Source: Candidatus Aenigmatarchaeota archaeon
Lineage (GTDB): Archaea; Aenigmatarchaeota; Aenigmatarchaeia; CG10238-14
Assembly: GCA_018304545.1 (NCBI GenBank)
Contig: JAGVVZ010000006.1
Coordinates: 1 to 64,000, forward strand
DNA length: 64,000 nucleotides
Reading direction: 5' to 3'
The notes beneath the pieces were generated by a model. The model saw nothing but the letters and a program-made list of their open reading frames with translations. It made no database searches and was not told where the DNA came from. Positions 1-50,913 of this stretch are shown piece after piece (the first letter of the stretch is position 1; every line of letters begins with the position of its first letter). Both the position numbers and the translations under genes were made by a program.

Positions 1-356
1 TTTAACGGTTCGCAGGGTCGGCTTCGCCTAAAACGCCAAGCGTTTTCCCCTGCTCTCCCAAATTTATTTTTCGAGGTCGGAATTTTGTGGGTTGCCTCAT
101 TTTTCGAGGCTCGGATTTTGGAGGAGAAAAAACTTCGTATATCCCTGACGTTAGGTGACATTTATTTTATAGCTCACTGAATAGCAACAATCATTGACTA
201 ATAAGAATGATAATTGATTTTGAATGGAAAATTAACTGCTTATCAGTAATAGTTAAAATAAAATGAAGAAATCAATATAAATTGAATTTGGCAAATACAT
301 TATACAGTTGGCAAATATTGTTTTGCTGCTATTATTTGGCTTTCGGGGGTGTTTTT

Positions 357-5978: not shown

Positions 5979-6758
5979 ATGTCAGAAAGTTTGGAAATTA
6001 AAGACCTACACGTAAAAGTGGAAGGAAAAGAAATTTTGAAAGGTCTCAACATAAAAATAAAACAAGGTGAAATCCATGCTATAATGGGACCTAACGGCAG
6101 CGGGAAGAGCACGTTGGCAAATACGCTTATGGGCCATCCTATCTATGATGTGGAAAGAGGTCAGATACTATTAAACAAAGAGGATGTTCTACAATACAAA
6201 GCAAATGAACGTGCAAAGAAAGGATTATTCTTAGCTTTCCAATATCCTACAGCCGTGCCGGGAGTGACAATGTTTAATTTCTTAAGAACCGCGTATAACG
6301 CAGTAAAGGTAAACGGCCATGCTAAAGATAAAAAACAAGAATTGACATCTGTACTGCAGTTCAGCAAACTACTTAATGAGAAACTGAAAATGCTTAAGAT
6401 GGACGAGTCTTTTGTAAAAAGATATGTAAACGATGGCTTTTCTGGAGGAGAAAAGAAAAGATCTGAAATACTCCAAATGGCTTTATTAGAGCCTAAGTTT
6501 GCTGTACTTGATGAAACTGATTCCGGTCTTGATGTGGATGCATTAAGGATTGTATCGGAAGGCATCAATAAGCTTTCAGGTCCAAATCTTGGCGTATTGA
6601 TAATCACCCATTATCAGAGAATATTAAGATACATCAAACCTGATCATGTGCATGTAATGATTGACGGAAAGATAGTTAAATCAGGCGGACATGATTTGGC
6701 AGAAAAACTGGAAGAAGAAGGATATGATTGGATTATAAAGGAGATAAAAAATGAATAA
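5979..6758 (+). CDS. sufC: Fe-S assembly ATPase SufC
   Basis: Walker [10 protein letters not shown], signature [19 protein letters not shown], Walker [12 protein letters not shown]. Confidence 0.97.
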
Positions 6759-9318
6759 AAACCAGCAAGGAATCTTGCAAATAAATGCGGATTATGCAAC
6801 CAAATACGGATTTAACGTTCCTGAAAATTACGTGTTCAAATCAAGAAAAGGCTTAAGCAGGGAAATAGTAGAAAAAATCTCCGAAATGAAAAATGAGCCG
6901 AAATGGATGACAGATTTTCGTTTGCGTTCTCTTGATATATTCATGAAAAAATCTATGCCAAAATGGGGAGCGAACTTAGATACAATAAATTTTGATGATA
7001 TTTATTATTATTTGAAACCGACTGAAGAAAAAGCGAAAAGCTGGGAAGATTTACCAGAGGAAATTAAGAATACGTTTGACAGGCTGGGTATTCCTGAAGC
7101 AGAAAGAAAGTTTTTAGGAGGAGTTGGCGCTCAATATGAAAGCGAAAATTTATATCACAGCATCAGAGAAGATCTCGCTAAGAAAGGTGTTATATTTCTT
7201 GGCATGGACGATGGCTTAAAAGAATATCCAGAAATTGTAAAAAAATATTTCGGCACTATAGTGCCACCGGAAGATAACAAGTTTGCTGCCTTAAACAGTG
7301 CTGTTTGGTCCGGCGGATCATTCGTTCTTGTACCAAAAGGTGTTAAAGTTGACGTACCACTTCAAGCTTATTTTAGAATCAATGCTGCTAACATGGGACA
7401 ATTCGAAAGAACGTTGATAATAGCAGAAGAAAATAGCTTCGTGCATTACACCGAAGGATGTTTTACAAAAGGTACACCCATAAAGACAATATCTGGATTA
7501 AAAAATATAGAAGATATCAAAGAGGGGGATATAGTGCTCACTCACACGAATTCTTATAAAAAGGTTTACAAAATTCAAAAAAGAAAGCATGATGGAGTAA
7601 TGTGTACAATAAACTATTTTGGTGATACAAGACACGAGATAAAAATAACTGGAGATCATCCTATACTCTCTGTAAGAAGAACAAAAACAGAATACAAAAA
7701 TAATGAATGGGAAACAGAGTGGGTAGAATCAAAGAATTTAGAAAAAGGTGATTATGTTGCAATACCTATTGATAGAACGATTATATCGCAAGACGGAAGA
7801 TTTTTCTCAGTAAAACTGAGCAGAGGAAGGCATACACCAAAAGTAATTGAGTTTAAAATTGATACAGACAAAGACTTTTTCAGATTAGTAGGTTACTATA
7901 TGGCAGAAGGTTCTATAATTAAAGAAAATTATTTGACATTTACTTTTAATAAAAATGAAAAGGCGTTTATAGAAGATGTAAAAGAATTGTTGGAAAAATT
8001 CTTTGGAAAAGCACCTTTAGAAAATGAAGAATACAAAAATGGTATTTCTCTTGTACTTTGTAGCACATTAGCTGCGAGACTTTTCAAGCAGGAATTTGGC
8101 TCTGGAGCAAAAAACAAGTCATTGCCAAAATGGTTTATGCTAGAAGCGCCAGAAAAACAAGTAGAATTCATAAAAGCTTACTGGAGAGGAGACGGCAGCT
8201 TTATCAACAAGAAATATTCATGGGGCAAGAAAAGAATGTTCAGAATAAATACTATCTCAGAAGTTCTTGCAGAGCAAACAAGAGATTTATTGTTAAGGTT
8301 GAATATTTTTGCATCAATAAATGTTTGGAATAAAAAAGAACCTAGAAGCAATTCATTTGCGATATACATAGGCGGTTCTCATTTACATAATTTTGCAGAT
8401 ATTGTGTCTCATAACATAAATGGAAGTGCCAACAACGCTGGAAAGCTATTGCTGAAACAAGAATTGATGTCTTATACGCAGATAACTGATAAATATGCAT
8501 TTGTTCCAATCAAAGATATAAAAAGAGAAATTGTAAAAAATGTGGAAGTTTACAATTTTAGTGTTGAAGATGATGAATCATATATTGCGCATGGAATAGC
8601 AGTTCACAATTGTACAGCTCCCGTATATACAACTGACTCTCTGCATTCTGCAGTAGTTGAAATCATCGCCTTGCCGGGATCAAGAGTGAGATACACGACA
8701 ATACAAAACTGGTCTCCAAATGTTTATAATCTGGTTACTAAAAGAGCATATGCTTATGAAAATGCAACAGTTGAATGGGTTGACTGCAATATAGGATCAA
8801 AAATAACGTCTAAATATCCCAGCGTATTTCTTGTTGGCAAAGGAGCAAAAGGAGAAATATTATCTATAGCCTTTGCTGGTAAAGGTCAACATCAAGATGC
8901 CGGTGGTAAGGCAGTGCATTTAGCACCTAACACTCAATCTACGATTACTTCAAAATCAATCAGCAAGGATGGGGGAAGAACAACTTATAGAGGATTGCTG
9001 AAAGTTTACCCCGGATGCAAGAATGTTAAATCCAACGTTCGATGCGACGCCTTGATATTAGACGACAAATCTGCTTCAGACACAATCCCATATATGGAAA
9101 TTAATGAGAAAGATGTCAGTATAGGCCATGAAGCAAGCGTAGGTAAAATCAGTGATGAACAACTATTTTATCTCATGTCACGTGGCCTTAATGAAGCCGA
9201 AGCGATGGCAATGATTGTTCGTGGCTTTATCGAACCTATTTCAAAAGAATTGCCGATGGAATTTGCATTAGAATTGAATAGACTGATAGAGCTGGAGATG
9301 GAAGGATCTGTCGGTTAG
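6751..9318 (+). CDS. sufB: Fe-S scaffold protein SufB, interrupted by an intein
   Basis: [24 protein letters not shown]; overlaps the sufC 3' end. Confidence 0.97.
7459..8610 (+). other. Intein with LAGLIDADG-type homing endonuclease inside SufB
   Basis: Starts [13 protein letters not shown], ends IAVHN|C; blocks LVGYYMAEG and [10 protein letters not shown]; excision restores [14 protein letters not shown]. 1152 nt = 384 codons. Confidence 0.95.
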
Positions 9319-30522: not shown

Positions 30523-32490
30523 TTATTTTCTAGAACCTTTCAACTTAATTCTTAAATTTTCTCTATATAAATTATAGGACTTTATACCATATCCTAATGC
30601 AATTAAATAGAATACATAAACAAACCATTCAGATATTACAAGAACTTTCAACTCCGTCGGATGTTCTTTAGTTACTAGATGATTCGTTACTCTGATAGAT
30701 TTACCCAAGTCAGGAATCTGCATTTGGACTGGCAATACGCCTTCTTTTGTTGGGACTGTGATCGCTCCTTCGCCTTCTCCTATTTTTTGCAATCCCTGGA
30801 ATGTAGGTGTTACAGCTCTCTCTACAATCATTGCATCTCCTGATACAACATAATCAGACTCATATGCTGTCCTGTAGCTGAACAACGACCCTAAAATTCC
30901 CGTAGCCCCTAGCACGATTAAAGCAACTAACACTATACCTCCGCCTATTATCAAGATTTTCTTGAATTGATCTGGATTCGTGTGCCTCTTTATTATCAAA
31001 ATTAAGCTGGCAGCAACAACCAATAAGAAGAAATAAATATCGAACAAGTATGCGCCTGTTGCAAAGATAAAAAATGAAAACACAAATTTTAGATTCTTTT
31101 GTCCTATCAACAAGTATCCTAATAACAGCATTAAAGATGAGAATATTATTACGGTTTTTATTGAAGGTAGTTCTGATCCTCCTCTGACTCCAAATGTTTC
31201 CAAGACAAACACGTCTTTTGGAAGGAATATCTCAGTATTCTCCTCAGAAATTGGCAGATCAGTTCTAGCTAAAGGTATGCTTATGACATCAACCGGAAAC
31301 ATAGTTGGTCTCGTCGAGAAATAGCTAAATGTCAACTGACCGTTAGTTACTTTTGGAAATGATAAAAGAAGATTTCCTTCATCTTCTGTCAGCTTCACCG
31401 GCTGATAATTAGTAGCTACATATAATGGCGTGCCGTCTACGTTTAATTTCAAGTATTCCACGCCCGTATTGGAATAATAATAATTAGTTTCGCCTAGGAT
31501 GCTGCCAGTCGCTGTTACTGCTACTCTATTTTCTGCCCTGTTCACTGTCGCGGTTAATGATGGTTTCAACCCCAATAACTGGACAAACACGCTAACGGAA
31601 TCATAACCATTCAAAAGAAATGTCCGTGCATTGTTGTATTTGGGCGGTATAGATACTTCTGATATGTCTATTTCTCTGGCAGAAGTCGTTAGAGTCAATT
31701 TCTTTTCCGAGTCGGCTTCTATCAAAACTTTTCCTTGCTGAATTGGAACTTGCAAGTTGTTGGAATCAAAAATACCCTGTATTGTAACAGTTGCTTCGCT
31801 GCCTTTCAAATCAAGAGTGAGTCTGTTCCCATCCTGTTCCCATTTCATAGCACCGTTGACCGATCTTATCTGCTCGTTGTTTTTTAAATCAATGAAATAA
31901 CTTCCTAAATCGCCCCCGAAAGCCCTCAATGTTATGATATAGAAAAATTCGTTAATATCTGCATATGTGAATTTGAACTCGCCATTAATCAGCTTAGAAA
32001 TTTCTGCCGTCCTCTGAATTACTACAACATTATCAACCAACCCGAACTTGTCTCCATCCAAAGCATAGCCGTGTTGCAAATCAAAATGAAGTTTGTTAAT
32101 CGGACCTGGAACGTTCAGATATATTTGACCTATGGTTCTTATATCAACTGTCGCTTGTAAATTGAATTTGCTCTCTTTCGCTAAAAAGAAATATCCTCTG
32201 CTGTCAAACGAAACTGCAGTCGGAACATTATTGATTTTCAAATCTTTAATTAGTATATCAGAAGACGGACCGAGTAAATAAATTTTCACATTCTCTCCTG
32301 AAATCACTTCGCCATTTCCCGTCAATGACAACGAATTCGTTTCTAAATCTCCCGACAATGTTAAACTCTCGATGGAGTAGATCTTCTCTACCGTTTGATT
32401 AATGATTATAATTTCTGTCGCATTGACCGTGTATAATAAAGAAATACTAACTAACAAAAACACTAATAAAATATTTATCGATCTTGACAT
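30523..32490 (-). CDS. Exported protein with multi-TM C-terminal region (655 aa)
   Basis: N-terminal signal peptide; several C-terminal hydrophobic helices; same strand and downstream of the giant secreted protein. Confidence 0.75.
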   Translation of the reverse strand: MSRSINILLVFLLVSISLLYTVNATEIIIINQTVEKIYSIESLTLSGDLETNSLSLTGNGEVISGENVKIYLLGPSSDILIKDLKINNVPTAVSFDSRGYFFLAKESKFNLQATVDIRTIGQIYLNVPGPINKLHFDLQHGYALDGDKFGLVDNVVVIQRTAEISKLINGEFKFTYADINEFFYIITLRAFGGDLGSYFIDLKNNEQIRSVNGAMKWEQDGNRLTLDLKGSEATVTIQGIFDSNNLQVPIQQGKVLIEADSEKKLTLTTSAREIDISEVSIPPKYNNARTFLLNGYDSVSVFVQLLGLKPSLTATVNRAENRVAVTATGSILGETNYYYSNTGVEYLKLNVDGTPLYVATNYQPVKLTEDEGNLLLSFPKVTNGQLTFSYFSTRPTMFPVDVISIPLARTDLPISEENTEIFLPKDVFVLETFGVRGGSELPSIKTVIIFSSLMLLLGYLLIGQKNLKFVFSFFIFATGAYLFDIYFFLLVVAASLILIIKRHTNPDQFKKILIIGGGIVLVALIVLGATGILGSLFSYRTAYESDYVVSGDAMIVERAVTPTFQGLQKIGEGEGAITVPTKEGVLPVQMQIPDLGKSIRVTNHLVTKEHPTELKVLVISEWFVYVFYLIALGYGIKSYNLYRENLRIKLKGSRK

Positions 32491-32624: not shown

Positions 32625-35600
32625 TTATTTACAATAATCTAAATTCTTTCCTGTTGTTGGATTTCTAGCACATGATCTGATTCTGGATAAACCATCTGTT
32701 ACACCTTCACCCCAATCATAACCACAAAATCTTATATCTTCTAATAATTCTACATTCCCGTTATATCGAGCCCAGTGAAACTTACATCTTAGCAATGTAC
32801 CACCTGACCCAGATATCTGTTGTCCCGTAGTACTGTCTCGGTAATTGAAATAAGTATCCACACAAATTGTATTATCTGTTGTTATCTTTCTATCATCGAG
32901 ATCAAGACTATACCCTATAGTGAACCCTCTTATAAAACATTCTTTATCTGTACTACATCTAAATAAGCCTGTTTCTTCATCAATCTTACAATATGTTCCT
33001 TCTGGGCAGACATGAGTATAGAGGCTTCTCTTGTCGCTTTTATCTGCAGCGCAAAAATACACAGTTCGATATCCGTTTTCTGGATTATTACCACAAAAAT
33101 AATTGCCTGCTCTTCTTTCTTGGTCTTCGTATTCACAACTATCTGCCTCTTTCATCCAACCTTGTGGAGGAGGCATTTCGTCAAGTATGCATTGGCATTC
33201 TTTACATTTTCCTGCATGCCCGTTTATAGAACAATCTACCCCGCCCTCAGAAGAATATTCACTATCGCAGTCAACATATTTATCACTTGAATAAGCCCCA
33301 CATTCTTTTTTACATACAAAATATTGTGTGTTATATTCATTGCATCCTAAAGAACTCTGATCAGTAAAGCATTTTAATGTTTTGCCAGATATGCCGTCAA
33401 TACACTTTAATCTTCCACCTATCACACCAGTTCCATCTGCATTTTCTATTCCATCTAACTTATAATCACAAAGTTCTCCTGGTTGCTTTATTCCATCTCC
33501 ACATATAGCAGCTTCATCTTGTCTACATTCACATCCTTTACATACATTATTATCACCACATCGAATTCCATCTAGTATTTTTCCATTATCAAAACAAACA
33601 CTGCTACATTCTTGTTTACACTGACATTTTCCATTATCAGAGAGTAAGCATCTTCCACTATTACTTGACAGAAACGACGTGCATTTATCTCCTTGTACTT
33701 TGCCATTACATGGATCAAACCAACCATTATTACATTTATTGTCCATTTCAGATTGAATCGTTGTTGTGGTTGATATGATGGTAGATAATGTTGAGGGTAT
33801 TTGAGTAGGTATGCTGGTTGATTTTATGGTTGTCGTAGTTGAAGTTGTTGCGGTAGTTCTCATAGTAGATGTGGTAGAGCTGGTGGTAGATGCGGGCTGC
33901 TTGATTGATGTCGTAGTAGTGGATGTTGTAGTGCTGGACGACGTGCTAATAGGCAGACTCGATGTTGGTATGATTAATCTCTGCCCGGAATAAATGACAT
34001 TATCTGTCAAACCGTTAGCCTGTTTTATAGCATCAACTGTTGTTCCATAAATTTGTGCTATTCTGTAAAGCGTCTCACCTGATTGAACAGTATGAATAAC
34101 TTGATTAATGGTGGATGTTGTGATTGATGTGCTAGTTGTTGGAATTGGTTGTACAGTGGCACCCATATTTGCCAATAGAAGATCATTTGATATACAGTAT
34201 TCCTTTGGATCAGATACATCACTATAACCAACAACTAGATACAAACTATCGAATATACCATCAATATAATGTTGAGGTGTTATATGTCTGAATGTATCAT
34301 AATTACTACTAGGATCTTCTCCGATGATATTGTAAACAGGAATATTATTTATAAAAACTGTGCCATCTTTCACATTCAAAACTACAGGAGTTCCACCCAA
34401 AGACAGCCCAATCGGAACCTCATTCACAGGTTGATATTTTGGATCGATGCATCCTCTCTTCTCTGGTTCTAAGGGTTGAGCGTTAATATTGCCACCGGGT
34501 AATATGGAATAAAATGAGTATTTGCTACCCTGTGTAACTGAAAATGATCCCCAAGAAATAAAAATGCCTTTTTCGTAATTTGAAGGTCTGACAATTATTT
34601 CATCTGATGGCTGTGTAACTGTAGGTGTTGGACTAGCAGTGATTGTTGTAGGAATGACAATAATGGTTGTTGTAGCTGGTTTATTTACAAGTGGAGACGT
34701 GTCCGTACAAGTACATTGTTCATTGCAATATTTTTTGTTGAACCATAGAGTTGAATCACATTGCTCTCCTTTATTTTTATTCTGGCATTTTTTATCATTC
34801 CAGTAGCCGTCACATTCCTGAGTATTATCAATATACATTGGTAATAGGCATCTGCAGTTCAAATCACAGTAGAGAGAATCTCCAAAAACTGTTTTATCGC
34901 ATGCATCTCCGCCTATTTTTTTATTTTTACAATTTTTTTCTGCATTTTCATCACAAAAGGTCGCAATTAGAGTTGTGGGTGTAGTAGTTAATCTGATCGT
35001 TGTAGATGTAATGGTTGTAGATGTGCTTGTTGAAGATGATCTAATATCAACACAAGTGAACAAGCCGTAATTCGGGTATTCGCCCCATTCAAACAATGTC
35101 TTGCATTGGCTGGAACAACAGTCCTTGTCAAAAGTGCATGAAGAACTAGGTAAAGCGCAATTTTGTATAGTTGTGGTTGTTGTTGGATTATGAGTAGTTG
35201 TTGTGCTAGTTGCTCTTTGTGCATTTATTCTTTGCATTACTTGCGATTCAATTAATGGTATTAAAGGTGTGATTGTCCGTGCATCGGTCGCGGAACCTAG
35301 CCCGACTCCCTCTGATATAGGAATGTCAATATAGAATGTTCCTATTCCAATTACATATGAAAAAACAGTCGAATAGTGAGTTCCCTTGTTTTCAAAAATA
35401 TTCAGATAATATTTTTCTATATATGAACCATCATTAGTTATCAAAAATTTCCGGTCGCTGCAGCTGCCATCACCAAACCGACATTTTCCACTAGTAGAGG
35501 GATCAAGTTCTAGAATATACAAACCTTCTCCATAACGATCAAATCCTTCTTTATATATAAATGGGGTTGATCGAGATGTAGTTGATGTTGTTGCAGATAT

Positions 35601-38381
35601 TGTAGAGGTTGTGGTTGTTGGCATCTGGACATTATTCAATTTTTTTGCTAATTCTTCCCTAAAGTAATCCATAAAACTTTGCCCCGGGTCTTCTTTGCAA
35701 GACTCATCATAATCATAATTCGGATCATCGATTTCGTAAATGTCTGCTTCTAAATGCCCCCACACGCCAGATTGAGGAATTATTGCTCCCCCATTGTTTA
35801 TACCTAAACATGCCTTCTTTTCATCTCTGACTCTTATTGACTTGGGATCCACATCAGTCTTCACCTGATCCGTTTTTATGTTGTATTGCTTCATCAACTT
35901 TACAACAAGATTTATTGTGTTATCAAATTCTTTTTTTGGCGGATATGAATAATCATTAAATGGTCCTGATGTAAAATATTGACCGCTCATTTCAATATTG
36001 ATTGATTTTTCATTATAATCTCCTGCGCAGTGAGAAAAAGTAACTTCTCTTTCATACATCGGAAGCATCTGAATAACTTCATCTTTACTAACAGCAAAAT
36101 GGCAACTCTGTCCTTTTGCTACTAGTCCGTTATATGTAGGACCAACACTCCACAATAGACTGTTTACATTCTTACATTCTGGATTATTTACCCATTCACT
36201 AGGAGTACATGGACCGGACCAATGAATAATTATCATAGTAGGGGTTATTTTAGTATCATCATAATTGAGGAGTTCTTTATACTCGTAATTATAAAAACCA
36301 CTCGTGGGCGGATAATCACTGCTAAATTTTATATTTCCAGTTGGCCCTGAATAAAGGCCTATCGGTTTTACATTAGGTTCGTCCGATGTTTTTAAATACC
36401 AATCTACGCCGTTTTTTCCTGTTTTACATTCATATTCCTGGTCATTGCTTACAGTAGCCCTATCACCTATATCGTCCGAATCGCATTTGTCCCAGCGTCC
36501 GTTAATAGGATTATCCAAATCTGTCGCGCAAATCCATCCGCCAGATCCTTTCCTACTCACGCAACTATTATCAGTAGAAACACAGTCACTGCTTTTATAA
36601 CACGAAGCAAAAATTGATCCTGGTTCTACAGAATTTTCATTTTCTTTTAAAGATCTTTCCATATATTTGTTAGTCAAGTACCATTCATTTTCATCGTCGC
36701 CAACACAATTAGGAAATCCGTAATTTGTACTATGCTTAAACAAATCTTCACCGAACCCCTTACCTTCATCATCTCGCGTCAAATCAGGACACACATCACC
36801 ATTCATACAGGTTTCTTTCACATTGTCGCAAGCTTCAGTACTCAAAACTATTTTTGCCAGTTTTCCGCCGCCACCTAAAGTTGTTGTTGTACTAGATGAT
36901 GATTGACGCAATAATCGTTCTGCTTCACTCATAGTGGATATCGTGGCAGATCTTTGAGTTGTTGTGGTTACAGAAGATTTTATTGTTGTGGTAGTTGGTT
37001 TAATTGTTGATGATGTTGTGGTTGAAGAGGAAGTAGTGGCAGATCTCAAGGATGTTGTGGTTGAAGAGGAAGTAGTTGTTGAACTGGATGTTGTGGTTGG
37101 TTGAGTGGATATTGTGTAAGGAACGGTTTGCGTGCATTGAACGCCATAATAATAAGCCGAAAGAATTGCATTATACGAATTTGGAGATCCGGCAATACCT
37201 GAAAAAACCCATTTCCAATTGAAAGAACTTCCAGATGATGCTGGCGTAGTTATTGTTGACGGATTTACGCCATTACCTGCTTCTATTTTAAGATTTTCAT
37301 AAGGAATTGTTGAGACAAAAACAAATCTGATTTCTTGCCCTGTAACTGGTTTCTGTGGTTCAACTGTTAATATTCCTGAACAGCTTTTCGGGCTAGATTG
37401 TGTTGTGGTTGTCAGTGGCACTGTTGTGCTTGTGGTCGTAGTGGAGGATGTTGAACTGGATGTTGCGGGAGGCATAACAAAATTAAAAGAGGCGCTCTCT
37501 GTTCCTAATGAATCCACATAATTATTTGTTATCAGTCGTCTTGTTCCAGAACTATCTTTGGTCCAGATTTCTTCCTGTCCGCCGTAGGATGGTTTTTGTA
37601 TGTATCCATAAAACACAATAGAGCCATAAGGCGAATAGAATCCACTTACAATGTCGCCACCTATATCATTATTCGTCTTTTGAATTACCTGAAAAACATC
37701 ACCTGTGCCAGTCAGCTGTATCTCGTACAATTCAAATCTGTTATTATTTCTATTAGATGTAAAAAGAATTGTTCCATCGAGCGATGAAAATTTGGGATAC
37801 CAATCTATCGCCGTTCCTTGAGTCAATCTTTTTAATTCACTGCCGTCATTGGAATTCATAGTATAGATGTCGTAATTGCCGTCTCTGATAGAATTGAAAA
37901 CTATTTTTTTTCCATTGTGAGAGAACATTGGCGAACTGTCATCAAAAGAATTCTTAGTCAACTGCTTTATATTGCTGCCATCTGCATTCATGATATAAAT
38001 CTCATAATTATCATTGCGATTTGACGAAAAAACTATTTTCGTGCCATCGTAAGAAAAGGATGGATAAATATTATTGCCTTGATACCTGGTAAGCTGGGTC
38101 TCCATAGATGTAGTTAAATCCATTAAATATATGTCAACATGCCCATTCCTAGGTGATGAGTAAACAACTCTCCTTCCATCAGACGAGATAGAAGGAGTAT
38201 GATCATCATGACCATTCCAAGTTATTTGCTTTACATTCTGGCCATCATTATCCATAACATAGATCTCATGATCGTCATCTCTATTAGAACTGAAAACGAT
38301 ATAATAAGCCGACGCTGACTGTAAAGTTAATAAAAAAATAAAAATAGATAGTACTATCCCTACCTTTTTCATAAACAACAC
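32625..38381 (-). CDS. Giant exported multidomain protein: TolB-like PD40 propeller, S/T linkers, amidase_2/PGRP-like domain, LysM, Cys-rich modules (1918 aa)
   Basis: Signal peptide; repeated SSNRNDNYEIYIMNADGSNIKQLT; TPTMIIIHWSG..TFSHCAGDYNEKSINIEMSGQ..WGHLEADIY..CKEDPGQSF; IHTVQSGETLYRIAQIYGTTVDAIKQANGL..GQRLIIP; TTTSSSTTT linkers. Confidence 0.9.
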   Translation of the reverse strand: MLFMKKVGIVLSIFIFLLTLQSASAYYIVFSSNRDDDHEIYVMDNDGQNVKQITWNGHDDHTPSISSDGRRVVYSSPRNGHVDIYLMDLTTSMETQLTRYQGNNIYPSFSYDGTKIVFSSNRNDNYEIYIMNADGSNIKQLTKNSFDDSSPMFSHNGKKIVFNSIRDGNYDIYTMNSNDGSELKRLTQGTAIDWYPKFSSLDGTILFTSNRNNNRFELYEIQLTGTGDVFQVIQKTNNDIGGDIVSGFYSPYGSIVFYGYIQKPSYGGQEEIWTKDSSGTRRLITNNYVDSLGTESASFNFVMPPATSSSTSSTTTTSTTVPLTTTTQSSPKSCSGILTVEPQKPVTGQEIRFVFVSTIPYENLKIEAGNGVNPSTITTPASSGSSFNWKWVFSGIAGSPNSYNAILSAYYYGVQCTQTVPYTISTQPTTTSSSTTTSSSTTTSLRSATTSSSTTTSSTIKPTTTTIKSSVTTTTQRSATISTMSEAERLLRQSSSSTTTTLGGGGKLAKIVLSTEACDNVKETCMNGDVCPDLTRDDEGKGFGEDLFKHSTNYGFPNCVGDDENEWYLTNKYMERSLKENENSVEPGSIFASCYKSSDCVSTDNSCVSRKGSGGWICATDLDNPINGRWDKCDSDDIGDRATVSNDQEYECKTGKNGVDWYLKTSDEPNVKPIGLYSGPTGNIKFSSDYPPTSGFYNYEYKELLNYDDTKITPTMIIIHWSGPCTPSEWVNNPECKNVNSLLWSVGPTYNGLVAKGQSCHFAVSKDEVIQMLPMYEREVTFSHCAGDYNEKSINIEMSGQYFTSGPFNDYSYPPKKEFDNTINLVVKLMKQYNIKTDQVKTDVDPKSIRVRDEKKACLGINNGGAIIPQSGVWGHLEADIYEIDDPNYDYDESCKEDPGQSFMDYFREELAKKLNNVQMPTTTTSTISATTSTTSRSTPFIYKEGFDRYGEGLYILELDPSTSGKCRFGDGSCSDRKFLITNDGSYIEKYYLNIFENKGTHYSTVFSYVIGIGTFYIDIPISEGVGLGSATDARTITPLIPLIESQVMQRINAQRATSTTTTHNPTTTTTIQNCALPSSSCTFDKDCCSSQCKTLFEWGEYPNYGLFTCVDIRSSSTSTSTTITSTTIRLTTTPTTLIATFCDENAEKNCKNKKIGGDACDKTVFGDSLYCDLNCRCLLPMYIDNTQECDGYWNDKKCQNKNKGEQCDSTLWFNKKYCNEQCTCTDTSPLVNKPATTTIIVIPTTITASPTPTVTQPSDEIIVRPSNYEKGIFISWGSFSVTQGSKYSFYSILPGGNINAQPLEPEKRGCIDPKYQPVNEVPIGLSLGGTPVVLNVKDGTVFINNIPVYNIIGEDPSSNYDTFRHITPQHYIDGIFDSLYLVVGYSDVSDPKEYCISNDLLLANMGATVQPIPTTSTSITTSTINQVIHTVQSGETLYRIAQIYGTTVDAIKQANGLTDNVIYSGQRLIIPTSSLPISTSSSTTTSTTTTSIKQPASTTSSTTSTMRTTATTSTTTTIKSTSIPTQIPSTLSTIISTTTTIQSEMDNKCNNGWFDPCNGKVQGDKCTSFLSSNSGRCLLSDNGKCQCKQECSSVCFDNGKILDGIRCGDNNVCKGCECRQDEAAICGDGIKQPGELCDYKLDGIENADGTGVIGGRLKCIDGISGKTLKCFTDQSSLGCNEYNTQYFVCKKECGAYSSDKYVDCDSEYSSEGGVDCSINGHAGKCKECQCILDEMPPPQGWMKEADSCEYEDQERRAGNYFCGNNPENGYRTVYFCAADKSDKRSLYTHVCPEGTYCKIDEETGLFRCSTDKECFIRGFTIGYSLDLDDRKITTDNTICVDTYFNYRDSTTGQQISGSGGTLLRCKFHWARYNGNVELLEDIRFCGYDWGEGVTDGLSRIRSCARNPTTGKNLDYCK
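33968..34102 (-). other. LysM domain in the giant protein
   Basis: IHTVQSGETLYRIAQIYGTTVDAIKQANGLTDNVIYSGQRLIIPTS. Confidence 0.92.
35660..36250 (-). other. Amidase_2/PGRP-like zinc amidase domain in the giant protein
   Basis: IIIHWSG, SHCAGDYNEKSINIEMSG, VWGHLEADIY..SCKEDPGQSF; His/His/Cys zinc ligands plausible. Confidence 0.82.
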
Positions 38382-38386
38382 AAAGA

Positions 38387-38974
38387 CTACTTCTTCTTTC
38401 TTGAATTCAGGCTGTTCACTAGCTGCTCGGCTGGCGTATGCAAAATTTCTGTTACTTTAGCATTTGTAAAACCTGCTTGTCTTGTCATTCTCTCAACTTC
38501 ACTCAATCGTTGTTTCATTTGCGACAGCCTCTTGCAGGCCCTAAACTTGTAAATTGCTGAAGTATTTTCGTCAGCGCCCCAACCGCTCGAATCCATCTTG
38601 TCTATTTCATGAATGAAACCGTCTACTGTAGTTCTTGTCTTTTCGTACAGGTTCAACAAATCAACAAGTTCTGGATTATTCAAATCCAAATCTTTCGTTC
38701 TTTTCTTTACGTCAGCTACTTTTCTTTCAAGATCTTCTGCTTCCAAATCAATTTTCCTATAAAATGTCTCTAAATTCATATTGCTTGGACTGCTACTTTC
38801 TCCCCAACTATCTAGTTCATCAAACGACAGATCCTGCATATCATGTTTTTCTTCAGGCATCTCATTTTTCATGCCTTGCATTGGCATAGAGAATTCTGGA
38901 AACGGTGCTGGCTGCTGTAATTGCGTTGCTTGAGAAGTTTCTTTCTCCTTTCGTTTAAACAAATTAAATACCAT
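38387..38974 (-). CDS. Hypothetical cytosolic helical protein (195 aa)
   Basis: Coiled-coil character; 5 bp upstream of the giant gene on the same strand. Confidence 0.65.
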   Translation of the reverse strand: MVFNLFKRKEKETSQATQLQQPAPFPEFSMPMQGMKNEMPEEKHDMQDLSFDELDSWGESSSPSNMNLETFYRKIDLEAEDLERKVADVKKRTKDLDLNNPELVDLLNLYEKTRTTVDGFIHEIDKMDSSGWGADENTSAIYKFRACKRLSQMKQRLSEVERMTRQAGFTNAKVTEILHTPAEQLVNSLNSRKKK

Positions 38975-44237: not shown

Positions 44238-44340
44238 GCCCTGGTAGCTCAGTTTGGATAGAAGCTTATAGCTATTAGGCAGCGCTCTCCTATCTAAGGA
44301 AGAAAGGCGAAGGTCTGGGGTTCAAATCCCCTCCAGGGCA
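44238..44340 (+). tRNA. Intron-containing tRNA, probably tRNA-Arg (CCT), attachment site of the downstream element
   Basis: Acceptor GCCCTGG/CCAGGGC, TAGCTCAGTTTGG D-arm, T-loop TTCAAAT. Unspliced 103 nt; removing 44262-44277 and 44293-44304 gives a 75-nt cloverleaf (27-43 G-A and 49-65 T-T mismatches). Anticodon tentative. Confidence 0.65.
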
Positions 44341-44341
44341 T
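44330..44341 (+). repeat. attL core direct repeat CCTCCAGGGCAT
   Basis: Exact 12-bp match to 51959-51970; lies in the 3' end of the tRNA. Confidence 0.75.
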
Positions 44342-44349
44342 CCTCAAAA

Positions 44350-44362
44350 TGTAAAATCCCCA
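44350..44362 (+). repeat. Inverted terminal/arm-type site TGTAAAATCCCCA
   Basis: Exact reverse complement of 51933-51945. Confidence 0.7.
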
Positions 44363-44399
44363 TCTGGCATATTTAGGCTGGAAGTGGGGATAGAACATC

Positions 44400-45587
44400 A
44401 TGGACATACATAATTTTGATAAAAGTTTAGAGAATATATCTAAGAGACTTGAAGGGTTAAGAGAACAAGATAGAAATGATATTTTTCAGTTCAAGAGACA
44501 GTTAGTAGTTGATAACATCAGTTCTGGCAGAATAATGAAATGTCTGTATACGCTCAAAAGACTTTCTGAGATGAATGATAAACCTTTTAGAGACTGCAAC
44601 AGAGATGATATTGTAAACCTAGTTGAAAAGATACAGCAACAGAGCTATACCGACTGGACTAAGACCGATTTCAAAAAGATATTGAAGAAGTTCCATAAAT
44701 GGTTAAGACAAACGGAAGAATTTCCACCTGAAGTAAAGTGGATAAAAACAAATGTCAGAAATCACAAAAAACTTCCTAACGAACTATTAACAAAGGAAGA
44801 AGTAGAAAGGTTAGCCAATACTACAGATAACTCTAGAGATAAGGCATTTATTTTAACGCTGTATGATAGCGGATGCAGGATAGGAGAATTCCTCCCTCTG
44901 AGAATAAAAGATATCATTTTTGATGAATATGGTTGTGTGATTTTAGTAAGTGGGAAGACAGGCGAAAGGAGAGTTAGGATATTAGATTATAGTAAGGAAT
45001 TACTGATGTGGCTTGAAGACCACCCCTCTAAAGAGAATCCAGAAGCATTTGTGTGGTGTCAATTTAATAAGAACAACGAATTAGTAAAATATTCGCATAT
45101 ATGCAGAATATTAAATGTAGCAAAGCAAAAAACAGGAATAACTAAGAAAGTTAATCCGCATGCTTTTCGACATGCTAGAGCTTCCAATTATGCTACTCAG
45201 ATACCAGAACAGACTATCAAGAAGCACTTTGGGTGGACCAATTCCAGTAAGATGTTGGATATATACATAAGTGTAGACGATAAGCAGGTTGATGATGCTT
45301 TACTAAAAAATATAAAAGGACTTAAACCAAAGGATGGTGAAATAAAGAAAATAGAAACAAAAATATGTCAAAAGTGCAATGAAACAAATTCCATATTGAC
45401 TCAGTTATGTGTGAAGTGTGGGAATCCATTCAATATAAACATATTAAAAGAAGACGAACATAGAAATGAGTTTGACAAATTCTTGAAAGATTTCTTAGTT
45501 GAGTTGGCAAAAAAGGACTCTACCGTGAAAAAGGTATTTAGACAAATGGTTAAGGAAAGAAAGTTAGAATATTTGTTTCAAAATTAA
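44400..45587 (+). CDS. int: Tyrosine recombinase/integrase with C-terminal zinc ribbon
   Basis: LTLYDSGCRIGEFLPLRIKDI, HAFRHARASNYATQ, HFGWTNSSKMLDIYI; CQKCNET..CVKCGNPF. Confidence 0.96.
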   Translation: MDIHNFDKSLENISKRLEGLREQDRNDIFQFKRQLVVDNISSGRIMKCLYTLKRLSEMNDKPFRDCNRDDIVNLVEKIQQQSYTDWTKTDFKKILKKFHKWLRQTEEFPPEVKWIKTNVRNHKKLPNELLTKEEVERLANTTDNSRDKAFILTLYDSGCRIGEFLPLRIKDIIFDEYGCVILVSGKTGERRVRILDYSKELLMWLEDHPSKENPEAFVWCQFNKNNELVKYSHICRILNVAKQKTGITKKVNPHAFRHARASNYATQIPEQTIKKHFGWTNSSKMLDIYISVDDKQVDDALLKNIKGLKPKDGEIKKIETKICQKCNETNSILTQLCVKCGNPFNINILKEDEHRNEFDKFLKDFLVELAKKDSTVKKVFRQMVKERKLEYLFQN

Positions 45588-46429
45588 GTACTGTGGTGCC
45601 GAGTTTCCTCTCTGTTCTGCACTTTCTTTTGAATAAAACTCCTGACAACTAATTCAACAGGAATTCCTATAACTACGCCTATGAGCGCACCCATGAATGC
45701 CCAAAAAAATGGTGTGAGAATCTCAGTTTCAGAAGATTTTGAATACCAAACTTGCTTATAATCGTATGAACTTGTTAATATTACCCATTTATTATATGGT
45801 CTGTCTACTCTTGCTCCATCAGGAATTCTTTCAATAACAGAGTCTTCTGTGGGCAAAACTAATACTCTAAATATGGAACCTTCTGGCGGGCACTGTGGAA
45901 TTCCTGGTTGACAAACAGTTCCGAACCAAGCAATATAATTTTTGCCTTGTTTTATAACAAAATTTGGAAGTTTATAGCTTACACTTACCATATAGTTTTC
46001 ATAATTGCTGGAATTCTGAATGGGAAAGGTAATTTCATATTCGTCCGGAGTGTTTGGCATGCTGGTTTTATTTACAAAAATTTGAAGAGGAGACTCATCA
46101 CATATTATTGTCACATAAAAATACCCGTAACCAGATGAGTAGCCTTTACAAATTGTTACATTAAAGTTTTTTACAGGTTGATGCCACGTACCTTCAAAAG
46201 GATAAAACTTGAAAGTGAAATTGTTAGTATATTGCGAAATATTTGGAGAGACATATAAATTCATTCCAATACTACTATATAAGTCATTATTATTAATCTC
46301 ATCAACTTCATACATTGACGTAATACTTCCAAACGGGTACCAACTCCAAATACGGGAACTGTAGGCAACATTTGAACTAAAAATAAGTGCAGACAAAATT
46401 ACTAGGAAGACATTAATCAACTTCATCAT
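45584..46429 (-). CDS. Exported protein with C-terminal TM anchor (281 aa)
   Basis: Signal peptide; C-terminal FFWAFMGALIGVVIGIPVELVVRSF; 4-nt overlap with the upstream HTH gene. Confidence 0.75.
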   Translation of the reverse strand: MMKLINVFLVILSALIFSSNVAYSSRIWSWYPFGSITSMYEVDEINNNDLYSSIGMNLYVSPNISQYTNNFTFKFYPFEGTWHQPVKNFNVTICKGYSSGYGYFYVTIICDESPLQIFVNKTSMPNTPDEYEITFPIQNSSNYENYMVSVSYKLPNFVIKQGKNYIAWFGTVCQPGIPQCPPEGSIFRVLVLPTEDSVIERIPDGARVDRPYNKWVILTSSYDYKQVWYSKSSETEILTPFFWAFMGALIGVVIGIPVELVVRSFIQKKVQNREETRHHST

Positions 46430-46644
46430 TTTCCCATATTTTTCTTATAATTTTTGTTAATCCACCACTGGTTTTGTCTTCCTACCTTTCTGTACATCAC
46501 TTTACCTTCTGCATACATTCTCATCAGATGCACTTGGGCTGTGTGCCATGTTATCTCTAGAGCTTTGGCCATATCTTCTGTGGTAGTTGGCCATTGTTGT
46601 TTGGATAGAAATTCTAATATTTTCTTGTCCGTATCGTTTGACAT
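46426..46644 (-). CDS. Small winged-helix DNA-binding protein (72 aa)
   Basis: DKKILEFLSKQQWPTTTEDMAKALEITWHTAQVHLMRMYAEGKVMYRKVGRQNQWWI. Confidence 0.8.
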   Translation of the reverse strand: MSNDTDKKILEFLSKQQWPTTTEDMAKALEITWHTAQVHLMRMYAEGKVMYRKVGRQNQWWINKNYKKNMGK

Positions 46645-46676
46645 ACTGTTATAATATATAGTGAGATTAAACTTAA

Positions 46677-48044
46677 ATGTTTCTATCCAAATATCATATT
46701 ATGAGAAGTTTTGTTTTTACAATACTCATTATATTTCTATTTTTGATGAATTTTGTTTCTGGATATATATATGATGATTTTTCTGTAAATATTTTAGATA
46801 CAAAAAAATGGCAAGAAATTCCTGGTAGTGATTTAAATAATCTATTTGTCGATGAACATTTTGTTGATTATTCAAAAAATGTTTATCACACGGCACAGTT
46901 AAATCCTGCTGACAGAGGAGTTACTATACAAATTACAAATCATACTTTTGTTTCTGGGGAAGTTTTAGAGTATGACATTAATTATCTAAGTGGGTCTGGT
47001 AACAGAATTAGTGTAATTGATTTAGATAGTAAAACAAAACATATTGGTGTTATTGGCTATTGGAATAAAATAGAACCCGGGGGTAATGACTTTGGTTTAT
47101 ACCATGTTATTGTTGAATTTGGCAACAATGAAGCAAATATAACCATAACAAAACCCGATGATAGTATCTCGAAAATGAGATTTGGTTCTATCGGAAATGC
47201 TCACTCTATTGGAATTGGGACTAGAACAGGACATGATGGTGTAGTTAGTATAAATTATGACAATTTCAAAATTTACGAACATGATAATTTTGCGCATCCT
47301 CTAGATATTACTTCAAAAGAAATTACAGCTCAAACCATAAAAAACACAGGGTCGAATACTATAGAAAATAAAAAATCAGATGGTATAACTGACTTTCTAT
47401 CTGGTTTAGTAATTATTTTATTATTCATATTTTTGTATAAGTCAATCACCAAAAAAATAAAATATGAGAAAGAAAAGAAAATTTTAGAAGAGGAGAAGAG
47501 AGAAAGAAAAATATTTGAGGAAGAACAAAAGAAAATACAGGAACAAGTGGAAGGAGAGAGAAAGATTGAAGAAGAACAGAAAAAGATGGGTCTAATTAAA
47601 TATATAGACAATATGGGTAATGAAAAATGGGATACAGAGAAACAAATAAAAAAATGGAAAGAGATTGATATAGGATTAAGTAATAATTTTGCTCATTTAA
47701 GTCCATATCAGTTCGAAGAATTTGTTTCTGAGCTATTTCAAAAAATGGGATATAAAACAAAAGTAACAAAAAAATCTGGTGATTTTGGTGCTGATGTAAT
47801 TGCCGAAAAAGAAAATGAAAGGATAGTAATACAAGTTAAAAAATACGCGAAAGGTAATAATGTAAATCCAGAAGAAATTCAAAGAACTCTTGGTGCAATG
47901 TGGAAATTCAAGGCGGATAAGGCTATATTCGTTACTACTTCTGATTTTACAGTTAGAGCTAAAGAAGTTCAAAAAGAAGCACCTATAGAATTATGGAATA
48001 ATAAGATACTACAGGAAATGGTGAGAAAATATTTTATACAATAA
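46677..48044 (+). CDS. Membrane-anchored Mrr-type restriction endonuclease-like protein
   Basis: N-terminal signal, extracytoplasmic beta-rich region (YIYDDFSVNILDTKKWQEIPG), TM FLSGLVIILLFIFLYKSI, coiled coil, C-terminal LSPYQFEEFVSELFQKMGYKTKVTKKSGDFGADVIAEKENERIVIQVKKYA. Confidence 0.88.
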   Translation: MFLSKYHIMRSFVFTILIIFLFLMNFVSGYIYDDFSVNILDTKKWQEIPGSDLNNLFVDEHFVDYSKNVYHTAQLNPADRGVTIQITNHTFVSGEVLEYDINYLSGSGNRISVIDLDSKTKHIGVIGYWNKIEPGGNDFGLYHVIVEFGNNEANITITKPDDSISKMRFGSIGNAHSIGIGTRTGHDGVVSINYDNFKIYEHDNFAHPLDITSKEITAQTIKNTGSNTIENKKSDGITDFLSGLVIILLFIFLYKSITKKIKYEKEKKILEEEKRERKIFEEEQKKIQEQVEGERKIEEEQKKMGLIKYIDNMGNEKWDTEKQIKKWKEIDIGLSNNFAHLSPYQFEEFVSELFQKMGYKTKVTKKSGDFGADVIAEKENERIVIQVKKYAKGNNVNPEEIQRTLGAMWKFKADKAIFVTTSDFTVRAKEVQKEAPIELWNNKILQEMVRKYFIQ

Positions 48045-48354
48045 CTAAGATTATTTATAAGTAGGTACCATTTAACATATACCAACAAAAAAGAATTCTT
48101 TTCATTACTAGTTTTGTGACACTGTGTCTATATATTTTTTAACTAAAACAAAGAATATCAGAAAGCCGAATATTATACTTATAGATGTCTATACTACCTG
48201 TTTTTTGTAAGTTCAATATTTTAATTATTTCTTATTGAATTACATCTAATATTGAATAACCGTTCATTGTTAGAACCGTGTTTTTGCTTTTTTAATATAG
48301 AGATTGTATATCATCTTTTGTTTTACACAATTTGTTGTTTTTACCTTCTATAGA

Positions 48355-48813
48355 CTAGCAAAAAGGTTTTTTAGATTTTTGTTCCATAGTAATTCTTGTC
48401 CCGTCCATGGGATAAGTAACTAGAGCTTGCATAGGATTTTCTTTTAAATTTTCTTCAAATTGTCGATTAGGTATATGGGTAACAGAGCCTGTGACAGCAA
48501 AGTTTTGAGTGTTGAAAAATGGTGCATCAAAGGTTGTCAGTACTCTACTATTTGCTATCTCAGGTTTTTTTAAATTGAGCCCTTCCAAGTATTTTGAACC
48601 TTTGGGGGATATGAAATATTTGTTACCTACTTCATCAATAAAACCAAGTTCCACATATCTATAAATAGTGTTGGGGGACAAGTGGGTTTCTTTTTTTATT
48701 TCTTCTAAATTCTTACCTTGATGGTGCTCTACTAAAAATTCTAAAACTCTTATAAGCTTTTCATCTTTTATGACTGAACAAAAATGTTCAGTTTCCTCAT
48801 TTTCAAAGACCAT
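48355..48813 (-). CDS. Winged-helix transcriptional regulator-like protein
   Basis: IRVLEFLVEHHQGKNLEEIKKETHLSPNTIYRYVELGFIDEVGNKYFISPKG. Confidence 0.75.
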   Translation of the reverse strand: MVFENEETEHFCSVIKDEKLIRVLEFLVEHHQGKNLEEIKKETHLSPNTIYRYVELGFIDEVGNKYFISPKGSKYLEGLNLKKPEIANSRVLTTFDAPFFNTQNFAVTGSVTHIPNRQFEENLKENPMQALVTYPMDGTRITMEQKSKKPFC

Positions 48814-48825
48814 ATATAAAGTATT

Positions 48826-48969
48826 ATGAAAAAGAAATTTATCTTTGCTGCAATACCGGTCTTAGATTACGAGAAACTAGAAAGAATAGTTAATTCTGGG
48901 AAATATCGAACTAAAGTTGATTTTCTTTGCACCAAAATTCGTGAAGAAAAGGTGAATTCGGATGAATAG
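48826..48969 (+). CDS. Ribbon-helix-helix-like small protein (47 aa), not in the ORF track
   Basis: MKKKFIFAAIPVLDYEKLERIVNSGKYRTKVDFLCTKIREEKVNSDE read by eye. Confidence 0.55.
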   Translation: MKKKFIFAAIPVLDYEKLERIVNSGKYRTKVDFLCTKIREEKVNSDE

Positions 48970-49046
48970 TTCGAAGGTTTTCCAACTACTTAAGCAATGG
49001 TTTTTAGAAAGAGAGCCATCATCCAATCCGGCTCAAGGTGTCAGTG

Positions 49047-49310
49047 ATGAAAAGAATTGATTTCGAAGCCCAAATAGACCACTTTAATGATTTTTATTAT
49101 AGACAGTTATTCGAGAGATTTGCAGCATCTGTCCATAATTCTCCATATAAACTCAAGACATGTCCGTTTAATTTCGTCTACTCCTTTTTCAGTTACTCTA
49201 AAATAGACAAGAGAACTGCCAGAGAGATTGTGAAACATTGGACAGCCAACGACTGGTGTCAAAGGGCAAAATATCACGGATTAAAATTAAAAGGTGAGTT
49301 GAGTGGATGA
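49047..49310 (+). CDS. Hypothetical small protein upstream of the helicase
   Basis: MKRIDFEAQIDHFNDFYYRQLFERF...; overlaps the helicase start by 8 nt; ORF track start 49038 (GTG). Confidence 0.6.
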   Translation: MKRIDFEAQIDHFNDFYYRQLFERFAASVHNSPYKLKTCPFNFVYSFFSYSKIDKRTAREIVKHWTANDWCQRAKYHGLKLKGELSG

Positions 49311-50913
49311 AATAAAAGATGATAATAGCGGGAAATATTTTTCTCAAGATAAGCCATCAGGAAGTTTCGTTCCAGAATCTCTTGCCCAAGACATAATGTT
49401 AACAACTAAATTTCTAACTTTCGTGGATTCAAAAGAAATTTTTTGGTTTGATAGAACAGAGGGTATATGGGAACTAAACGGTGAGGTTCTAATCAGACAG
49501 ACGGGAACAGAACTGTTGGGTAAAAAAACAAAACAAAATTATCTAAATGAAACTATTGACTACATAAAAAGCAAAACCTATACTGATAGGAAAATTTTTG
49601 ATAACCAAAACCTTAATTTGATGCCTTTGAAAAATGGAGTTTTGAATCTCGAAACTATGAAGTTGATGCCTTATTCTCCAGATTTTTATTTTACTTCAAA
49701 ATTAAATGTTAAGTATGACCCTAATGTAAACTGTCCAACAGTAACGAAATTCCTTGAAGAAGTTGTTAGTAGCGACGATATTATTCTCTTGTTTGAATTA
49801 GCAGGTTACTGTCTCTATCGAAAATATCCAATTCAAAAAGCTTTCATGTTAGTTGGAGATGGTGCAAATGGCAAATCAACTTTCTTAAATTTAATCATAT
49901 CTCTCTTAGGCCCAGAGAATGTTTGCGCTGTTTCCCTTCAAGATTTAGAGCGTAACAGGTTTGCGAGTGCTAGTCTATATAGAAAACTGGCGAACATTTA
50001 TGCTGACTTGCCAAATGTTGCACTAAAGAATCCCGGTATATTTAAAATGTTGACTGGCGGAGATGTGATGCACGGCGAGAAGAAATTCAAAGATTCATTC
50101 TTTTTTTCGAATCATGCAAAGCTAATTTTTTCAGCTAATAAAGTACCTTTCGTGCAAGATGAAAGCTCAGCGTTTTACCGCCGTTGGATAATTATAAATT
50201 TCCCTAACAAATTCGAAGGGGACAAAGCCAATCCTTTGCTGCTAAAAATACTCACTACTGAAGAAGAATTGAGCGGTTTTCTGAATTTAGCACTACTAGG
50301 ATTAAAAAGAATTTTAGAGAGTGGTTGTTTCTCATATACAAAATCAACAGAAGAGATTAGGGAAGCATACATAAGAGCAAGTGACCCTATTGGCGCATTC
50401 ATTATTGATTGTATAATATCATCTCCAGAGGATTGTGTTTCAAAAGATGAGCTTTATAATGCCTATTGCCTATACTGCAAAAATAAAAAGCTTCTGACTT
50501 TGGATAAGAACGTGTTTTTCAAGAACATTAGAAAGTATGTGCAAATAGACGATTATAAACCAACTATAGACGGCAGGAGAGTTATGGCATGGAAGGGGAT
50601 AAGACTTGTTGCCCCTGTCAATGATGTCAGGGGTAATTCTAATTTAAATTCCATACAAGATTCTGATGAAATTAAAATAATAGAAAAATCCGACAGCCTT
50701 GACAACCCAGACACAAGGATTGATGGTATATCAATAAAAGAGCAACATTCTGAATCTAAAAATGGGTGGAAGAAAATATATTCATATTTTGGGTTGTGTG
50801 AATGGGGTCAACATGAGACTATAGTGGAGTATAAGATAAAGGACGATATAGACCTTAAGTGGAAAACATCTTGTAAAGGTTGTTTTGACAAGGAAATGAA
50901 ATCCTTTCTATAA
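49303..50913 (+). CDS. D5/P4-family phage/plasmid replication helicase (SF3)
   Basis: FMLVGDGANGKSTFLNLIISLLG, LANIYADLPN, GGDVMHGEKKFKDSFFFSNHAKLIFSANKVP, FYRRWIIINFP. Confidence 0.93.
   Translation: MDEIKDDNSGKYFSQDKPSGSFVPESLAQDIMLTTKFLTFVDSKEIFWFDRTEGIWELNGEVLIRQTGTELLGKKTKQNYLNETIDYIKSKTYTDRKIFDNQNLNLMPLKNGVLNLETMKLMPYSPDFYFTSKLNVKYDPNVNCPTVTKFLEEVVSSDDIILLFELAGYCLYRKYPIQKAFMLVGDGANGKSTFLNLIISLLGPENVCAVSLQDLERNRFASASLYRKLANIYADLPNVALKNPGIFKMLTGGDVMHGEKKFKDSFFFSNHAKLIFSANKVPFVQDESSAFYRRWIIINFPNKFEGDKANPLLLKILTTEEELSGFLNLALLGLKRILESGCFSYTKSTEEIREAYIRASDPIGAFIIDCIISSPEDCVSKDELYNAYCLYCKNKKLLTLDKNVFFKNIRKYVQIDDYKPTIDGRRVMAWKGIRLVAPVNDVRGNSNLNSIQDSDEIKIIEKSDSLDNPDTRIDGISIKEQHSESKNGWKKIYSYFGLCEWGQHETIVEYKIKDDIDLKWKTSCKGCFDKEMKSFL

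Follow-up and report, generated by a model that had tools for sequence, protein, structure and literature searches.

A giant, probably secreted aenigmatarchaeal protein combining a predicted peptidoglycan amidase with LysM and a beta-propeller

The Locus and the Domain Layout of the Giant Protein

The window analyzed here is a stretch of 64,000 nt from a Candidatus Aenigmatarchaeota archaeon (assembly GCA_018304545.1, contig JAGVVZ010000006.1, positions 1–64,000). Its minus strand carries an uninterrupted open reading frame of 1918 amino acids, about 211 kDa, at 32625..38381, which probably encodes a secreted peptidoglycan amidase. A preliminary description, made from the DNA letters without database searches, had proposed a giant protein with amidase, LysM, and TolB-type propeller domains at this location. 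The frame is indeed intact, and PD40 (8e-26), LysM (7.6e-16), and Amidase_2 (7.5e-14) all score above the curated Pfam cut-offs. Translation probably does not begin at the GTG that opens the frame; the ATG found in frame three codons further, at 38372, is the likelier start. Hydropathy places a signal peptide-like segment with an Ala-Ser-Ala site at the N terminus (38310..38381, minus strand, like all features of this gene); it is the only hydrophobic segment of the protein, and the C terminus has none. The product looks secreted and free of an anchor, and the secretion proposed at the outset is supported by this single signal-like segment.

The N-terminal segment is followed by a TolB/PD40-type beta-propeller (aa 25–300, 37482..38309; PF07676, 8.2e-26) in which about six blade repeats can be counted by eye, the PD40 repeats recognized by Pfam falling in the first 240 residues. 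TolB of the Tol–Pal system was considered as an identity and rejected, as TIGR02800 scores 150 bits against an equivalog cut-off of 343 bits, and the propeller part alone matches. Next come a probable Ig-like domain set between Ser/Thr linkers (aa 332–424, 37110..37388), recognized by inspection and without a Pfam match, and a Cys-rich module (aa 509–675, 36357..36857) with no family match, including in PHROG. The Amidase_2 catalytic domain occupies aa 700–915 (35637..36284). Beyond it lie a domain with neither a PHROG nor a Pfam match (aa 941–1057, 35211..35561), a run of short disulfide-knot-like Cys modules seen by inspection between Ser/Thr linkers (aa 1074–1232, 34686..35162), and another domain that neither PHROG nor Pfam matches (aa 1261–1413, 34143..34601). 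A single complete LysM (aa 1430–1472, 33966..34094; PF01476, 58.2 bits, positions 1–43 of 43) precedes the Cys-rich C-terminal region (aa 1545–1918, 32628..33749), in which hydropathy and inspection indicate no membrane anchor. In all, the protein contains 76 cysteines and numerous runs of Ser/Thr/Pro, and PADLOC gave no match to the gene.

The Amidase Domain

The PF01510 match covers aa 713–840 and scores 52.6 bits against a cut-off of 26. It ends at residue 840, short of the second zinc-binding histidine, because the giant protein has a long loop there. The motifs picked out in the preliminary description are all present: IIIHWSG (His720), SINIEMSG (Glu797), GHLEAD (His876), and CKEDPG (Lys896/Asp898). 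Amidase_2 sequences were aligned in a set of 18 comprising the giant protein and bacterial, phage or viral-contig, and archaeal relatives. His720, Asn790, Glu797, and His876 form invariant columns in this alignment, and the Lys896-x-Asp898-Pro-Gly of CKEDPG coincides with the K-x-DP(G) present in most rows. The first zinc ligand is His720 (codon 36222..36224), the second is His876 (35754..35756), which follows the long lineage-specific loop, and the third is Asp898; codons 896–898 span 35688..35696 and include the catalytic Lys896, while Glu797 (35991..35993) is the catalytic or water-orienting glutamate. The placement of His876 is backed by a similarly long loop before the GH in one viral sequence (L034) and two aenigmatarchaeal sequences (L067 and L068). 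A MAFFT alignment of four sequences had suggested replacement of the second zinc histidine by arginine, a result overturned by the set of 18 and by the relatives that have the long loop. Judged by alignment, the domain keeps the canonical H-H-D zinc site together with the catalytic Glu and Lys. The zinc site was claimed to be intact from the start, and the loss of ligands that would have spoken against the amidase is not what the larger alignment displays.

The domain is divergent, with 15–24% identity to the other rows. Structure prediction, which had been put forward as a check, gave an AF2 model of medium confidence (pLDDT 63, pTM 0.69); a model from the four-sequence alignment was poor (pLDDT 46). 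All 27 Foldseek matches at E<=0.001 to the medium-confidence model are AmpD, AmpDh2, AmiD, AmiA, PGRP, T7 lysozyme, or endolysin amidases, with TM to target up to 0.55, so that the model finds this fold and no other. A profile of the giant amidase and three archaeal relatives has AmpDh2, AmiD, and AmpD as its best PDB matches. The original label "PGRP-like" holds at the level of the superfamily, but in the profile search and Foldseek the AmpD and AmiD amidases are closer, and the modeled domain is better called AmpD/AmiD/endolysin-like than specifically PGRP-like. It shares the catalytic fold and the H-H-D zinc site with Glu and Lys with AmpDh2, AmiD, AmpD, and phage Amidase_2 endolysins, of which PGRPs are cousins, but differs from them in its low identity, the long loop before the second histidine, and its embedding in a multi-domain archaeal protein. 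A tblastn search of phages and plasmids with the amidase returned no match, no close relatives were found among viral contigs, phages, and plasmids, and a scan of genome contigs with the domain gave no match.

Archaeal Origin and Neighboring Genes

The source genome comprises 0.96 Mb in 11 contigs and is 92% complete, with a contamination estimate of 0.57%; a 16S gene was not found in it. The giant gene is located mid-position in a 104-kb contig. Its GC content is 0.369, compared with 0.357 for the window, and its codon usage correlates at 0.92 with eleven pooled genes of its contig. The LysM of the giant protein is identical at 31 of 43 residues (72%) to that of a gene on another contig of the genome, C10, which therefore ties the two contigs together, and C10 carries genes with homologues in named Aenigmatarchaeota. 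Related genomes include G008 from the same GTDB family (PFTQ01000044.1, Candidatus Aenigmarchaeota archaeon CG_4_9_14_3_um_filter_37_18) and G016 from the same GTDB order (JACPAE010000001.1, an Aenigmatarchaeota archaeon from groundwater). A tRNA near the giant gene (44238-44340) has a length of 103 nt and, in archaeal fashion, intron-like insertions. An archaeal origin is supported by contig context, codon usage, and the LysM common to C10, and the same three observations contradict the bacterial contamination of the contig that had been raised as a possible refutation.

Immediately upstream, a gene for a 195-aa coiled-coil-like protein (38387..38974, minus strand) stops 5 bp from the giant gene, and the two are possibly co-transcribed. 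Downstream, inspection indicates a 655-aa protein with several membrane segments (30523..32490, minus strand); a search of 156 genomes of the phylum found a real homologue in none but its own. A separate segment of the window (44238-50913) begins with the tRNA with intron-like insertions and continues with a phage-type integrase (44400-45587), an Mrr-like restriction enzyme, and a D5/DUF5906 primase-helicase (49303-50913). It is probably an integrated element, although the window showed no directly repeated copy of the tRNA end. The window also holds inteins with LAGLIDADG endonuclease domains at 282-4022 and 6751-9318, in a ribonucleotide reductase and a SufB/D-core protein.

Other Wall-Targeting Genes in the Genome and the Phylum

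The end of contig C10 (L048 6847-10000; from about 168.7 kb to the contig end at 171,893) encodes a LysM protein with a glycosidase-like domain and then an SLT transglycosylase–metallopeptidase. The LysM protein has a TIM-barrel domain that looks like a glycosidase, and its gene is cut by the contig end; the domain has neither a Pfam nor a PDB sequence match, and its glycosidase nature is read from motif inspection alone. The next gene encodes 611 aa that comprise a membrane helix at the N terminus, an SLT domain, and a stretch resembling reprolysin-type metallopeptidases that scores just below the cut-off. Genes for several pilin-like proteins and one prenyl-reductase-like gene come after it. 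In its SLT region, the 611-aa protein shares 39% identity with SLT–Amidase_2 proteins in G008 and a further genome, G005, and the reductase gene is 53% identical to the counterpart near the genes for those proteins. In G008 (L049 8608-17999) and G005 (L050 8540-17894), the SLT–Amidase_2 proteins are pilin-like and clustered with a T2SSE/FlaI-type ATPase, a FlaJ/TadC-like protein, and small pilin-like proteins. The counterpart ATPase of the genome studied here (65% identity to the G005 enzyme) and its pilins are on contig C4, where no wall hydrolase was noticed beside them when the frames were read by eye. The SLT–Amidase_2 genes of G008 and G005 and the SLT cluster on C10 therefore place wall hydrolases in pilus-like clusters in this family, and the arrangement may reflect a functional link. 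The G005 and G008 proteins resemble the giant protein in phylum, family, and an extracellular Amidase_2, but they are apparently anchored in the membrane by an N-terminal helix, have SLT instead of LysM, and belong to a pilus-like cluster.

SLT domains are found in 46 of the 156 genomes of the phylum (17 of the 39 of high quality), Amidase_2 in 10, and LysM in 12. When the places of the matches are compared across the 156 genomes, the giant protein is the only chain with both Amidase_2 and LysM. No real homologue of the full-length protein or of its C-terminal region was found in these genomes, nor a close homologue of its amidase within the phylum. Open reading frames with wall hydrolase domains are often very large in this phylum, reaching 2254 aa (SLT and Amidase_2) and 3646 aa (SLT and F5/8 type C). 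The latter, from G088 (L079 469-11406), is a probably secreted protein with 104 cysteines and a segment resembling a C-terminal membrane anchor. The genome G124 (L077 3538-8169) encodes a protein of 1544 aa with Amidase_2, Ig/FN3 domains, and a Kelch propeller. Like the giant protein, it combines Amidase_2, Ig-like domains, and a beta-propeller in the same phylum, but its propeller is C-terminal and of the Kelch type, and it has FN3, no LysM, and few cysteines. Since the G124 protein is independent, the amidase-plus-propeller plan has probably been built more than once. Mur_ligase_M-family proteins are present in 24 of the 156 genomes and in 8 of the 39 of high quality.

Relation to Known Systems

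Among archaeal genomes, about 5% carry modular peptidoglycan hydrolases, and bacteria were shown to be killed by two such enzymes from Halogranum (Strock et al. 2025, PMC12352652). In the text of that study, such proteins are defined by at least one Pfam catalytic and at least one Pfam wall-binding domain, and an export signal is reported for 32% of homologues. The giant protein has both kinds of domain (PF01510 and PF01476), and its genome yields no Mur_ligase_M candidate at 92% completeness, in keeping with a producer that has no peptidoglycan of its own. As far as the enzymes are described there, it resembles them in being archaeal and apparently secreted, in joining a catalytic to a wall-binding domain, and in this lack of own peptidoglycan. 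It differs from Woldo, the example detailed in PMC12352652 (Halogranum Woldo/DanWoldo) and an M23 peptidase with PG_binding_1, in being an Amidase_2 and LysM protein built into 1918 aa of propeller and Cys-rich sequence. Aenigmatarchaeota are not named in the main text of that paper; its supplementary tables may list the giant protein.

Extracellular DPANN proteins that contain a murein transglycosylase domain and can reach 3,000 aa have also been described (Castelle et al. 2021, PMC8204110), and DPANN transglycosylases appear in Vigneron et al. 2022 (PMC9723730) and in a study of oxygen-deficient zones (PMC10936187). Like the giant protein, fam00969 of Woesearchaeota and Pacearchaeota (PMC8204110) is a very large extracellular DPANN protein with a murein-hydrolase domain for which bacterial walls were proposed as the target. 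The giant protein differs in having an amidase rather than SLT, as well as LysM and a propeller, and in coming from another phylum; Pfam finds no SLT or murein transglycosylase domain in it, the one in its genome being elsewhere. The preliminary description treated murein enzymes in an archaeon as a surprise, which the archaeal precedents in these sources (PMC12352652, PMC8204110) remove, but its reading that the murein is foreign is supported. What is new here is the combination of Amidase_2, LysM, and propeller and the Aenigmatarchaeota context, the kind of protein being already published.

Proposed Function and Alternatives

The search that found no Mur_ligase_M candidate in this genome rang in 12 of 14 control reference genomes. 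Because a Mur ligase was not found, the target wall is probably foreign, with the reservation that the assembly may be short of 8% of the genome; the same result speaks for the foreign-murein proposal made at the outset. We consider it likely that the aenigmatarchaeal cell secretes the protein as a modular peptidoglycan hydrolase aimed at bacterial neighbors. The union of a catalytic and a wall-binding domain in one polypeptide and the adjacent LysM and SLT genes on C10 point in the same direction.

Judging from the N terminus, and from a sequence otherwise free of hydrophobic segments, Sec export followed by removal of the signal peptide would release the protein outside the cell. Its LysM, as the family is known to do, would grip GlcNAc-containing glycan strands; LysM also binds chitin. 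The zinc amidase, given its intact ligands and fold, would then cleave the MurNAc–L-alanine bond. In the weakest step of the proposal, the propeller, Ig-like, and Cys-rich modules with their Ser/Thr spacers might serve as an adhesive or scaffold that keeps the enzyme attached to the target or to the surface of the archaeon. The pilin-like SLT transglycosylase–metallopeptidase and the LysM–glycosidase-like protein of the same genome are probably its partners, and the cell would likely benefit by reaching, attaching to, or feeding on bacteria as hosts or prey. The earlier wording "weapon or host-interaction/feeding factor" is plausible, and the present data do not separate killing from a gentle opening of the wall.

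The alternative with the most to recommend it, which we find quite possible if short of an even chance, keeps the chemistry and changes the purpose, thereby overlapping with the proposal above. Here the protein would mainly anchor the archaeon to bacterial or archaeal surfaces, and local trimming of the wall by the amidase would serve only attachment, DNA uptake, or symbiosis, not killing. Non-catalytic sequence makes up most of its length, the G124 protein joins Amidase_2 to Ig/FN3 domains and a propeller in the same phylum, and in relatives the SLT–Amidase_2 proteins are encoded alongside a pilus ATPase and pilin-like proteins; set against this are the full catalytic set and the complementary lytic enzymes in the same genome. 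That catalytic set, with all zinc ligands and the Glu and Lys kept, also makes a dead peptidoglycan sensor or binder, like the non-enzymatic PGRPs, very unlikely despite the divergence and long insertion of the domain. Remodeling of the archaeon's own envelope, or of the pseudomurein wall of a host, is unlikely. Many DPANN archaea do live on archaeal hosts, but Amidase_2, SLT, and LysM together fit murein chemistry, no Mur ligase was found in the genome, and pseudomurein differs from murein in its sugar and linkage. In the text of PMC12352652, LysM is described as able to bind other GlcNAc polymers, which leans toward such an envelope target.

Two further explanations concern where the gene came from. 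A lysin captured from a phage or mobile element, and not used on bacteria, would agree with weak PHROG lysis matches and with the integrase and primase-helicase about 6–11 kb away beside a tRNA gene. The giant gene, however, is outside the tRNA–integrase segment and fits its contig in codon usage, no close phage homologue was found, and a signal peptide-like N terminus, propeller, and Cys modules are unlike endolysins, all of which leaves capture highly improbable. Bacterial contamination of the assembly is the least credible of all, to the point of being nearly negligible: Amidase_2 and LysM-type domains are typically bacterial, but the gene is in the middle of a 104-kb contig of a genome with a 0.57% contamination estimate, matches its neighbors in GC and codon usage, shares its LysM with a contig whose genes have homologues in named Aenigmatarchaeota, and is close to an archaeal-looking tRNA with intron-like insertions.

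Implications for the Aenigmatarchaeota

The reading of the giant protein as a secreted hydrolase aimed at bacterial neighbors can be extended to the phylum, as a tentative proposal that we hold to be possible rather than probable. Many Aenigmatarchaeota without murein may carry a coordinated extracellular wall-opening kit of amidase, transglycosylase, glycosidase-like protein, and peptidase, partly on type IV pilus-like proteins, with which they would attach to, breach, and feed on bacteria as episymbionts or predators; the giant protein would be its secreted arm. The usual view is that DPANN archaea live on other archaea, and we know of no identified hosts of Aenigmatarchaeota. Murein hydrolases in about 30% of the genomes of the phylum, some of them in pilus-like clusters, point to bacterial partners or prey. 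The giant protein is, in addition, a further source of wall amidases that are divergent and rich in disulfides.
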